DNA of 64,000 nt from Malaciobacter marinus (GTDB taxonomy: Bacteria > Campylobacterota > Campylobacteria > Campylobacterales > Arcobacteraceae): NCBI RefSeq assembly GCF_003544855.1, contig NZ_CP032101.1:434001-498000 (forward strand). Reading direction: 5' to 3'. The notes below the pieces were generated by a model. It searched no databases and was not told the DNA's origin. It saw only the letters and a list, made by a program, of their open reading frames with translations. This document shows positions 29,535 through 48,741 of the stretch, in pieces; within the stretch, counting starts at the first letter, position 1, and each line of letters begins with the position of its first letter. The position numbers and the translations under genes were made by a program.

Positions 29535-30779
29535 ATGATAGATATAAAATTACTGCAAAAAGATTTTGAAACTACTGCAAATGCCTTAAAAAGAAAAGGT
29601 GTAGATGCAAAACTACTTGATAGTTTAAAAACAATTTCACAAGATGCTAAAGCAAAAAGACAAAGCATGGAAGATGTAACTGCAGAGCAAAATAAATTAT
29701 CAAAAGAGTTTGGAAGATATAAAAAAGAAGGACTTGATATAGCACCATTACAAAAAAGTATTGGTGAACTTAAAGCTAAAAAACAAGACTTAGAAGATGA
29801 GGTTAGAATTTTAGAAGAGAAACTAACTTCAATCGCACTTGGTGTTCCAAATTTTCCAGATGAGAATGTTCCAGATGGTGAAAATGAAGATGAAAATGTT
29901 GTATTAGAAACAATAGGTGAAAAACCATCATTTAGTTTTGAACCAAAAGAACATTGGGATTTAGGTGAAAAAAATGGATGGCTAGATTTTGAAAGAGGCG
30001 TTAAGTTAGCTAAATCTAGATTTTCAGCTATGAAAGGAGTTGCTGCAAGATTAGAAAGAGCATTGATTAATTATATGCTTGATTTTAATAGACAAAGAGG
30101 TTTTGAAGAGTGGTATGTTCCATTTATGGCAAACTCAAATACTTTGCAAGGAACAGGACAACTTCCAAAATTTGAAGATGATTTGTTTAAAATTGAGGGT
30201 GAGGATTTATATCTTATTCCAACAGCAGAAGTAAGTCTTACTAATCTTTATAGTGATGAAATAGTTGCAGTTGATGAATTACCTTTAATGCTAACTTCTT
30301 ATACTCCTTGTTTTAGAAAAGAAGCAGGAAGTGCAGGGCGAGATACAAGAGGATTGATTAGACAACACCAATTTGATAAAGTTGAAATGGTTGCAATTAC
30401 TAAACAAGAAGAATCAGAAGAAATATTTGAAAAAATGGTTGCTTGTGCTAGTGATTTATTAACTTCACTTGGACTTTCTCATCAAAAAGTTATGCTTTGT
30501 ACTGGTGATTTAGGATTTAGTGCAGCAAAAACAATTGATTTAGAAGTTTGGCTTCCTGGACAAAATAAGTATAGAGAAATATCTTCAATCTCAAATACTA
30601 AAGAGTTTCAAGCAAGACGAGCAAAAATTAGATATAAAGAGAATAAAAAGAATATTTTAGCGCATACATTAAATGGTTCTTCTTTAGCAGTTGGAAGAAC
30701 ACTTGTAGCTATAATGGAAAACTATCAACAAGAAGATGGTTCTATAAAAATACCTGACGTACTTAAAAAGTATATGTAA
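29535..30779 (+). CDS. serS: Seryl-tRNA synthetase
   Basis: 414 residues, the normal length. The start [29 protein letters not shown] leads into the N-terminal coiled-coil arm (about 28-105) that binds tRNA-Ser. The class II core has motif 2 ([25 protein letters not shown]) and motif 3 ([20 protein letters not shown]), plus TAEV and [15 protein letters not shown]. It charges tRNA-Ser in the cytoplasm. GGTGAAAGAT precedes the ATG. It is a housekeeping gene marking the end of the iron island. Confidence 0.97.
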
Positions 30780-30785
30780 GAAATA

Positions 30786-30818
30786 AAAAAATAAGAAACT
30801 AAAAGCTTCTTATTTTTT
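30786..30818. terminator. Bidirectional terminator after serS
   Basis: A perfect 12-bp stem (AAAAAATAAGAA / TTCTTATTTTTT) has a 9-base loop and starts 6 bp past the serS stop. The A-run before and T-run after the stem allow termination on both strands, so it can also end the minus-strand RNA predicted at 31005-30786. Confidence 0.75.
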
Positions 30819-31005
30819 AAACAAAATTCGCAATTCTAATAATATATTCACATTTATTTATCAATAATTTGACAAGTATAAATTAATTCTTTGTTTAGTT
30901 CAAAGTTAGGAATGAGAATGACTAAACTAAAGAATTAAAAGACAAAAGAAGTTTCATAAGACTTATTATGTAGGGAAGGAGACATATTATAAGTAAAACT
31001 TCTTT
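30786..31005 (-). ncRNA. Predicted Crp/Fnr-controlled small RNA with anti-Shine-Dalgarno loop
   Basis: No open reading frame of note lies here, but two strong hairpins do. Read on the minus strand, the first (31005-30945) starts at the predicted transcription start: an outer stem AAAGAAGTTT / AAACTTCTTT and an inner stem ACTTATAATATGT / ACATAATAAGT present the 10-base loop CTCCTTCCCT. The second (30936-30883) has a 17-bp stem with one bulged base and a 21-base pyrimidine-rich loop containing TCATTCC. Termination would occur at the serS bidirectional hairpin, giving about 220 nt, or earlier. A Crp/Fnr box and TATAAT with nrf-like spacing precede it. Existence, ends and targets are predictions. 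The plus strand would fold as well, with a purine loop AGGGAAGGAG, but no comparable promoter was found for it. Confidence 0.6.
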
Positions 31006-31011
31006 GACTGT

Positions 31012-31053
31012 ATTATATAACTTTATACAAATTATATACTTGATTTATATCAA
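31012..31053 (-). promoter_or_regulatory. Crp/Fnr box and -10 element of the predicted small RNA
   Basis: The palindrome TTGATTTATATCAA (31040-31053) is a perfect TTGAT-N4-ATCAA site. On the minus strand TATAAT lies at 31017-31012. Box centre to -10 centre is 32 bp, placing the site at -41.5 from a start at about 31005, the class II activation geometry. Confidence 0.65.
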
Positions 31054-31113: not shown

Positions 31114-31150
31114 AAAAAATCACTATAAATAACTTTTATAGTGATTTTTT
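31114..31150. terminator. Terminator of the nrf-ccsBA operon
   Basis: A perfect 15-bp stem (AAAAAATCACTATAA / TTATAGTGATTTTTT) has a 7-base loop. The right arm includes the ccsBA stop codon and last codons. On the minus strand the left arm supplies a run of six T. Another AT-only hairpin lies at 31066-31088. Confidence 0.75.
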
Positions 31151-36504: not shown

Positions 36505-36546
36505 ATTATAAAATTAATTAAAGGTAAGTATCTTGACTTAAATCAA
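36505..36546 (-). promoter_or_regulatory. Crp/Fnr-type promoter of nrfH
   Basis: The box TTGACTTAAATCAA (36533-36546; arms CTTGA/TCAAG when extended) is centred 32 bp from the centre of TATAAT (minus strand, 36510-36505). This gives -41.5 relative to a start near 36498. The same spacing is found in front of napA and the predicted small RNA. Confidence 0.75.
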
Positions 36547-44729: not shown

Positions 44730-44771
44730 ATTGTATCACTTATTTTAAATATAATAATTGACCTTAGTCAA
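44730..44771 (-). promoter_or_regulatory. Crp/Fnr-type promoter of the nap operon
   Basis: TTGACCTTAGTCAA (44758-44771) is a palindrome with perfect TTGAC/GTCAA arms. The minus-strand -10 box TACAAT lies at 44735-44730, centre-to-centre 32 bp from the palindrome, placing the site at -41.5 for a start near 44723, 25 bases from the napA start codon. Confidence 0.75.
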
Positions 44772-45445: not shown

Positions 45446-46427
45446 ATTCTTTTGTTTTACAATTTTTAGATAAAGAGTTAAGCTCTTTTTTAAGCTCTTC
45501 TAATTTATGAGTAAAGTTTAATAAATTTTCTTGTGATTCAATTACCATATCTTCACTTTTATATAATTGGCTTGATAAATCTCTTGATTCACTTAATTCA
45601 TCAAGGATTTCATCAAATTCATTTGTCAAATCTTCTAGTTTTTTTGAAGCATTATCTGAATAAGCCATTGCTGCATTTATTTTATTGATAAAGCAATTAA
45701 GTGTATTTGTTGCTTCTACTATCTCTTTTTCTGCTTCAAAATGTATTAAATCAATCGGCTCATTTAATTTGCCTTCTTTTATTTTATTAGATAATTCTAT
45801 AAATTTTTTAGCATTTTCTTCCATACTTTTTAATTGAAAATAACTATAGATAATTAAGTTAATAATTATTAGTGCAAAAAGATATTGAAAATATTTTATA
45901 AATGTTGTTTTTCTTTCTGAATATGTTGTATATAAACTTACAATTTTATCAACTTCATTTAGTAAATTATTGTTAGTAGCATATACAGTATCAACTAAAA
46001 TTTTTAATGTTTTTTCATTTTTCCCATTTCTATTTTGTAATAGTTTTTTAATATCTTCAATATTTTTATAAAAACTAGACCATAAAATCTCTACTTTTGA
46101 TATTTGATTAGAAATAGCAGTAGTTGGTGCTGGTTCTATTTTGATTAAATGATTTCCATCTTTTAAAGAGTTTAAGTTATATATAAATTCTTGAGTTGCA
46201 TTATCAAGTTCTGAAAAACTATGTTGATTATTGTGATAAAGATAAAATACATTTTTTGATATTTTTTGAGTTAGCATCCTTTGTTTACCTGCAATATTTA
46301 TTATTAGAGCATCTTTTTCATTTTTTGCATTTAAATATATTGTTGTTGCTATAACACTTGACATTAAAATAACAAATAATAAACCAATTGTTTTGATTTT
46401 ATTACTTATTGCTGCTGTTTTTTTCAT
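45435..46427 (-). CDS. PilJ/NarX-type sensor domain membrane protein without output domain
   Basis: 330 residues: helix 1 (about 13-32), a periplasmic helical region (33-180) starting LIINIAGKQRMLTQKISKNVFYLYHN, helix 2 (181-200), then cytoplasmic coiled coil (210-325). The INIAGKQRMLTQ segment is the hallmark of the PilJ-type domain, related to the nitrate-binding domain of NarX, in which this helix carries the ligand-binding arginine. No kinase, GGDEF or methyl-accepting domain follows. It overlaps the Crp/Fnr gene by 4 bases. A nitrate/nitrite-sensing role beside the nap operon is plausible but inferred. Confidence 0.72.
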   Translation of the reverse strand: MKKTAAISNKIKTIGLLFVILMSSVIATTIYLNAKNEKDALIINIAGKQRMLTQKISKNVFYLYHNNQHSFSELDNATQEFIYNLNSLKDGNHLIKIEPAPTTAISNQISKVEILWSSFYKNIEDIKKLLQNRNGKNEKTLKILVDTVYATNNNLLNEVDKIVSLYTTYSERKTTFIKYFQYLFALIIINLIIYSYFQLKSMEENAKKFIELSNKIKEGKLNEPIDLIHFEAEKEIVEATNTLNCFINKINAAMAYSDNASKKLEDLTNEFDEILDELSESRDLSSQLYKSEDMVIESQENLLNFTHKLEELKKELNSLSKNCKTKESIV

Positions 46428-47089
46428 ACACCAATTCCTTTGAATATTGATACAAGTTCTTCTTTGTTTAGAATTGTTACTTTACTATTTTGGATACTTA
46501 TTGTTTTATTTCTACTTAATCTTTTTAAAACTCTTGATAAAGTTTCTGGTTGAATATGTAACATAAATGATACTTCTTGTCTTTTTAATTGATTAAACAT
46601 ATCTAAATCTTGAGTTAACATAAATGCAACTTTAGCAGTTGCATCAAATACTAATTCTCTATTTATAATACATTGAAATTGTTGACTTTTTTTTAGTAAA
46701 ACTTCAATTAGCTTTGAAGTTAAAATATTTTTATCTAAAAAGTTTTCTTTAAACTTTTCATAATCAACAACCAATATAGTTGAATTTTGCGTAAATTCAG
46801 CATTTGAAAAACATTGTATTTCTTTACTATCTAATGAAGATAGCTCTGATATCATACTATTTTTATATATGTGATATAAAAAAATCTCGTTTCCAAATTT
46901 GTCAACTTTATATATTTTTATTAAACCATCTACTAGAAACATAAGTTTATTATTTATTTCCGTTTCATAATATAAAATTGAATTCTTAGGATAAGTAGAT
47001 ACATTTGAAAAGCTAGCTAATGTATTTACTTGTTTTTCATTTAGTTCTTCAAAAAATTCAATATTTTTTATAGTATCTTCTAATAACAA
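46424..47089 (-). CDS. Crp/Fnr-family regulator (Nss-like)
   Basis: 221 residues: a cyclic-nucleotide-binding-like beta domain (about 15-120), a dimer helix (120-150) and a winged helix with recognition helix QPETLSRVLKRLSR. E182, S185 and R186 match the E-xx-SR of FNR that contacts TTGA, the half-site found in front of nrf and nap. The N-terminal cysteine cluster of FNR is absent; the only cysteines are C93 and C140. It therefore resembles the Nss/Nsr-type regulators of Wolinella and Campylobacter that respond to nitrogen oxides. It is the first gene of a two-gene operon with the PilJ-like protein. Confidence 0.85.
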   Translation of the reverse strand: MLLEDTIKNIEFFEELNEKQVNTLASFSNVSTYPKNSILYYETEINNKLMFLVDGLIKIYKVDKFGNEIFLYHIYKNSMISELSSLDSKEIQCFSNAEFTQNSTILVVDYEKFKENFLDKNILTSKLIEVLLKKSQQFQCIINRELVFDATAKVAFMLTQDLDMFNQLKRQEVSFMLHIQPETLSRVLKRLSRNKTISIQNSKVTILNKEELVSIFKGIGV

Positions 47090-48114: not shown

Positions 48115-48741
48115 ATGAATTTAAAAGAGCTTTATTTATTTAAAGATTTAGATGAAAAGACGATCAGACAAATAGAAAATATTTCTGTTAAAAGTAATTA
48201 TGTAAAAGATAATATCATCTTTTATGAAGGTGATGAATCAAAATATTTACATTTATTAATAAAAGGTGTAGTTAAACTTTATAAAAGCACAAGTAACAGT
48301 AAAGAGATTGTTATGAAGTATTTTTATGATAATGAACTTATCGCAGAATTAAGTAATTTTGAAAAGATACCTTATCCAGCAAGTGCTGTTGCATATAGTG
48401 AGTGTGAAGTTTTAAAAATTGATTTTGAAAAATTTAGAAAAATTATCTATTCAAATGAAGATTTAATTTTAAAAATACAATCTTCACTTATAAAAAAGAT
48501 AAAAAATTTAGAAAGAATCATCTCTTCACAATTGGTTTTAGATACACATCAAAGAGTTGCAAAATATATAGTTGAGAATCAAGAAGACTTTTTTAATACA
48601 AAAAATATTCTAATTGCTCAAATGCTTAATATAACACCTGAGACTTTATCAAGAGTACTTAGAAATTATAAAGACAAAAGTCTTATTGATATGAAAAATA
48701 AAACTATAAATCAAGAAGAACTTATAACAATTTATAGTTAA
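48115..48741 (+). CDS. Crp/Fnr-family regulator, second copy
   Basis: 208 residues: a beta-roll sensor (20-115), a dimer helix and a winged helix with ITPETLSRVLRNYKDK. E176, S179 and R180 fit TTGA half-site recognition, as in its neighbour at 46424-47089. It has one cysteine only (C97), so no FNR-type iron-sulfur centre. It follows the TrpD2-like gene at 9 bp and is probably co-transcribed with it; moaA follows 66 bp downstream. Together with the other copy it is a candidate activator of nap, nrf and the small RNA. Confidence 0.85.
   Translation: MNLKELYLFKDLDEKTIRQIENISVKSNYVKDNIIFYEGDESKYLHLLIKGVVKLYKSTSNSKEIVMKYFYDNELIAELSNFEKIPYPASAVAYSECEVLKIDFEKFRKIIYSNEDLILKIQSSLIKKIKNLERIISSQLVLDTHQRVAKYIVENQEDFFNTKNILIAQMLNITPETLSRVLRNYKDKSLIDMKNKTINQEELITIYS

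Follow-up and report, generated by a model that had tools for sequence, protein, structure and literature searches.

In Malaciobacter marinus, the convergent genes serS (plus strand, ending at 30779) and ccsBA (minus strand, ending at 31136) enclose a gap of 356 bp that contains no gene. Positions refer to the window, i.e. the whole 64-kb stretch of DNA that was analysed. The gap carries the following features:

31053-31040 (centre 31046.5), minus strand: Crp/Fnr-type operator TTGATATAAATCAA, read directly; invariant in 6/6 genomes
31017-31012 (centre 31014.5), minus strand: -10 element TATAAT; invariant in 6/6 genomes
31005-30945, minus strand: hairpin 1, predicted 5' end of the RNA; same fold in six species
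30963..30985, minus strand: invariant 23-nt core ATGTCTCCTTCCCTACATAATAA, which contains the anti-Shine-Dalgarno loop
30981-30972, minus strand: unpaired loop CUCCUUCCCU of hairpin 1; unpaired probability about 1.0
30937-30885, minus strand: hairpin 2 with a covarying stem of ~16-17 pairs and a pyrimidine-rich loop, conserved loop segment CAUUCCUAA
30825..30851, read on the plus strand: direct repeat ATTCGCA-N13-ATTCACA; 67% invariant columns versus about 30% in the flanks
30786..30818, minus strand: possible terminator common to the RNA and the convergent serS, composed of an AT-rich hairpin and a T run

The operator is a perfect TTGAT-N4-ATCAA box, of which it represents the single occurrence in the 64-kb window. 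Its centre lies 32 bp from the centre of the TATAAT hexamer, leaving a gap of exactly 22 bp between box and -10 element, and with a start predicted near 31005 the operator is centred at -41.5. The box, the minus-strand TATAAT at this distance and the gene-free gap had all been reported in the first-pass annotation of this DNA, and its description holds. Two strong hairpins had likewise been described, the first beginning at 31005 and displaying a loop complementary to AAGGAG, the second with a 17-bp stem and a pyrimidine loop. Indeed, the segment 31005-30786 has a minimum free energy of -44.7 kcal/mol compared to a shuffle mean of -26.2 kcal/mol (z = -4.7, 0/200 shuffles), and both hairpins are recovered. 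Covariance models of Rfam produced no match above the gathering score anywhere in the window, and the element is conserved in six genomes, in agreement with the earlier proposal of an unannotated small RNA.

The minus-strand T run of the putative terminator is absent in one genome of the genus (G003), which leaves the 3' end of the RNA uncertain; it may follow hairpin 2 or coincide with the terminator shared with serS. The direct repeat, situated between the RNA and the terminator of serS, takes the form ATTCGCA-N13/14-ATTCRCA across the genus and could represent a further segment of the RNA or a regulator site. A search of roughly 0.85 Mb of the organism's own genome revealed no second copy of this type of site, and a genome-wide regulator site was rejected on this ground.

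Within 0.86 Mb of the organism's genome, boxes of the type TTGAY-N4-RTCAA also precede napA, nrfH, hcp and a hemerythrin gene, in each case with exactly 22 bp to a TAYAAT hexamer. Two of these promoters and two candidate activators are encoded in the window:

36505..36546, minus strand: nrfH promoter of the same class, box-N22-TATAAT
44730..44771, minus strand: napA promoter of the same class, box-N22-TACAAT
46424..47089, minus strand: Crp/Fnr-family regulator, candidate activator; cNMP_binding and HTH_Crp_2 domains, helix with ETLSR
48115..48741, plus strand: Crp/Fnr-family regulator, candidate activator; cNMP_binding and HTH_Crp_2 domains, helix with ETLSR

With a TTGAY-N4-RTCAA box at -41.5 and the fixed distance to the -10 element, the promoter of the putative RNA is, as judged by its sequence, a class II Crp/Fnr promoter of the type common to nap and nrf. 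This kinship had been claimed in the first-pass annotation and is substantiated by the identical 22-bp spacing across regulon and genus. The pattern box-N22-TANAAT yielded 40 matches in six genomes, compared to one match for a reversed control pattern. The genes located 3' of 30 of these 40 matches are hcp, napA, nrfH, hemerythrin, small cytochrome c and NapC-Hao genes plus few single cases, and the pattern is present at the RNA locus in all six genomes. As it recurs both at the RNA and at the nap, nrf and hcp genes, the predicted RNA appears to be a constant member of the nitrate/nitrite/N-oxide regulon. Both candidate regulators are encoded beside the nap genes and carry ETLSR in their recognition helices, the type that in the Crp/Fnr family reads TTGAY; the genome encodes further Crp/Fnr proteins.

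Promoters of this class were also encountered upstream of other conserved elements. In the genomes G004 and G005, such a promoter at TTGACTTTGGTCAA lies ahead of a nearly 400-nt leader, which is conserved between both species and precedes genes for a NapC/NirT protein and an octaheme hydroxylamine-oxidoreductase-like protein; this leader is possibly regulatory. In genus g11 (G104, G106, G015, G057, G109, G051, G119, G122), a TTGATATAAATCAA-like box, 22 bp and TANAAT are followed by the conserved element ACTCTnnnnnAGAGCTTG...YGG...CTCCT, which may represent either the leader of a gene or a regulon RNA analogous to the present one.

The first-pass annotation had staked its proposal beforehand on conservation of the hairpins and the loop in relatives with the same gene neighbourhood, and the serS/ccsBA region including the RNA element is retained in all six Malaciobacter genomes compared, which leaves the proposal standing on this point. 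In their alignment, the operator, the -10 element and the 23-nt core are all invariant, whereas only about 30-32% of the columns are invariant in the terminator and the flanks. A run of invariant columns as long as the 23 consecutive ones of the core was obtained in none of 20,000 column permutations. Each of the six sequences alone folds into the identical two hairpins, with CUCCUUCCCU fully unpaired. In hairpin 2, 6 of 14 stem pairs are changed on both sides with retention of pairing, while hairpin 1 keeps its outer stem and varies in its inner stem, again with pairing retained. Over the whole structure, compensating changes affect 7 pairs, a value that was reached in 0/500 shuffles and is far above that of slid controls. 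As the sequences are few and related (n = 6), this covariation supports but does not prove the structure; the invariance of box, -10 element and loop in six species, combined with covariation of hairpin 2, nevertheless points to more than chance.

Searches of 104 genomes of the family with the exact loop, with a covariance model and with the box/-10/CTCC pattern retrieved only the six Malaciobacter members. Weak matches of the covariance model in the family were situated inside or next to protein-coding genes. A loop scan of a wider genome collection detected Malaciobacter halophilus DSM 18005, Arcobacter sp. CECT 8985 and four matches in unrelated taxa, the latter being about the number expected by chance. 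At the sensitivity of these searches, the predicted RNA element is genus-specific. By this comparative evidence, which covers the structured element, its promoter class and its regulon, the locus qualifies as a real, genus-specific RNA gene of the nitrate/N-oxide regulon.

The complete genome gave no match to Hfq (PF17209), although control genomes were positive, and an Hfq-independent mechanism is consequently required. We favor the reading, to which we assign a probability of roughly 65%, that a minus-strand small RNA is activated through the class II Crp/Fnr promoter and uses its anti-Shine-Dalgarno loops to bind ribosome-binding sites in trans without Hfq. What follows on transcription, inducing signal, targets and trans pairing with ribosome-binding sites is inferred. 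A Crp/Fnr-family activator positioned at -41.5 would turn on an RNA that starts near 31005 and has a length of about 120-220 nt. Cells respiring nitrate or nitrite, or exposed to nitrosative stress, would induce this RNA along with nap, nrf, hcp, hemerythrin and related genes. The chain of hairpins would hold the pyrimidine loops open, above all CUCCUUCCCU, so as to imitate the end of 16S rRNA that carries the anti-Shine-Dalgarno sequence. Acting in trans, the loops would then most likely occupy purine-rich ribosome-binding sites on mRNAs and thereby reduce translation; such anti-Shine-Dalgarno pairing appears to be the best mechanism.

The loop CUCCUUCCCU is complementary to the AAGGAG ribosome-binding sites of Malaciobacter marinus, and many genes therefore score in a target search. 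The scan comprised 522 ortholog triples with conserved leaders from three species, corresponding to ~29% of the own genome and ~28% of the genomes of two relatives. The top position was taken by ccoN with -16.7 kcal/mol in all three species, followed by a next best value of -13.4 kcal/mol; ccoP, which was assigned by two CxxCH motifs and its position after ccoN, ranked 4th, and napA ranked 10th. Control loops, in which UCUCCUU was retained and the rest was shuffled (n = 120), reached -16.7 kcal/mol 16 times at ccoN and 50 times when any of the genes was counted. Low-energy targets were equally numerous for these controls, which accordingly provide no independent support for action in trans, and the best score of ccoN is not significant. 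Several genera without the RNA likewise retain the ccoN leader ATTAGTAGGAGGAGATTG, so that a co-evolved target in ccoN is not supported. Pairing with the ribosome-binding site of napA, as suggested in the first-pass annotation, is feasible for the loop; its specificity is not supported, however, as napA is only 10th of the 522 triples, many other ribosome-binding sites pair about as well and the controls with UCUCCUU perform equally. Taken together, the control loops and the ccoN leader in RNA-less genera mean that no target is established, and the predicted pairings with ccoN and ccoP are leads only. Just upstream of ccoN, a paired motif AAGTGAC-N6to8-GTGACTTG is conserved across many genera of the family (L250-L271), which is probably a regulator site of the cbb3 oxidase operon.

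The target statistics give no preference to pairing at ribosome-binding sites, and the invariant core reaches past the loop into the inner stem, where covariation is absent. Both observations would also suit a minus-strand RNA that works by a route other than anti-Shine-Dalgarno pairing, i.e. via a protein that recognizes the invariant loop, via pairing within coding regions or via another RNA. However, an open anti-Shine-Dalgarno loop is the commonest type of seed in C/U-rich small RNAs (PMC10746234, PMC8295292), and we consider these routes unlikely, albeit worth keeping in mind.

Folding does not discriminate between the strands, both of which fold equally well, and the G-U pairs are equally uninformative in this respect. 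Read from the plus strand, the hairpins expose GGA motifs in their loops (UUAGGAAUGAG, UAGGGAAGGAGA), and a weak -10-like TATAAT/AATAAT sequence is present within the conserved repeat block, features that could belong to an RNA titrating CsrA in the manner of CsrB/RsmZ. However, a search of the complete genome for CsrA (PF02599) gave no match, while control genomes were positive, which removes the sponge reading of the plus strand. Moreover, the invariant class II promoter directs the minus strand, which is thus predicted to be the transcribed one. We rejected the CsrA sponge as highly improbable. A short mRNA or leader encoding a small peptide (ATG TCT CCT TCC CTA CAT ...) is just as hard to sustain: the first eight codons from the ATG at 30985 are identical in six species, but the end of the frame differs between species, no ribosome-binding site precedes the ATG, no reading frame is conserved and the third codon positions of the core never change, as expected for an RNA rather than a protein. 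The peptide was rejected on these sequence grounds. That the region holds no RNA gene and is nothing more than remnants of the terminators and promoters of serS and ccsBA is scarcely credible. Both genes do have bidirectional terminator hairpins here, but these are distinct from hairpins 1 and 2, and all six species have box, -10 element and loop unchanged, versus only ~31-32% invariant columns for terminator and flanks.

The minus-strand small RNA favored here is best compared with RNAs that share its loops or its type of promoter. In NfeR1 of Sinorhizobium meliloti, a member of the alpha-r14 family, an ultraconserved anti-Shine-Dalgarno motif is presented in unpaired loops on variable stems; NfeR1 pairs at translation start regions, is tied to nitrogen physiology and is controlled by LsrB and NtrC (PMC10746234). 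The display of open anti-Shine-Dalgarno loops on hairpins is common to both RNAs. However, the alphaproteobacterial NfeR1 has three hairpins, each with the identical loop motif CCUCCUCCC that characterizes alpha-r14, whereas the Malaciobacter RNA has two different loops of the CUCCUUCCCU and CAUUCCUAA type and a Crp/Fnr promoter instead of control by LsrB/NtrC; a sequence relation was not found. FnrS of enterobacteria (PMC8139620) and AniS of Neisseria (PMC4423775) are activated by FNR-family regulators under oxygen limitation and constitute the repressive side of a respiration regulon. The Malaciobacter RNA resembles them in its FNR-family-type promoter and its place in a respiration regulon. 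Their hosts possess Hfq, on which AniS reportedly depends (PMC4423775), whereas no Hfq was detected in Malaciobacter marinus, and Rfam reveals no relation. RepG of Helicobacter pylori is a further small RNA of the Campylobacterota that works through a C/U-rich hairpin loop; it is encoded between hp1043 and hp1044 and recognizes a G-repeat within the leader of tlpB (PMC8295292). In RepG the C/U-rich loop belongs to the terminator. The main one of the Malaciobacter RNA is in the 5' hairpin, and its hairpin 2 may or may not act as a terminator; loop, locus and promoter differ from those of RepG. In Campylobacter jejuni of the same phylum, nitrosative-stress genes are likewise under Crp/Fnr-family control, by the regulator NssR (Elvers et al. 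2005, cited in PMC8139620). The literature searched contained neither a small RNA of the NssR regulon nor an FNR-type small RNA in a nitrate/N-oxide regulon of Campylobacterota. Judged by sequence, the predicted RNA gene belongs to none of the families compared and is a previously undescribed candidate.

Most known small RNAs under FNR-type control come from Hfq-using bacteria. The interest of the present candidate resides in its occurrence in a genome with neither Hfq nor CsrA detected, and with a defined promoter, predicted start, loop and regulon it offers a compact and directly testable case. In its most far-reaching and rather doubtful form, the proposal would be that this genus-specific, Hfq-free riboregulator extends the nitrate/N-oxide regulon to the post-transcriptional level and lowers translation of ccoN/ccoP and other aerobic energy genes. 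If true, one Crp/Fnr signal would build nitrate respiration and at the same time throttle oxygen respiration through the cbb3 oxidase.
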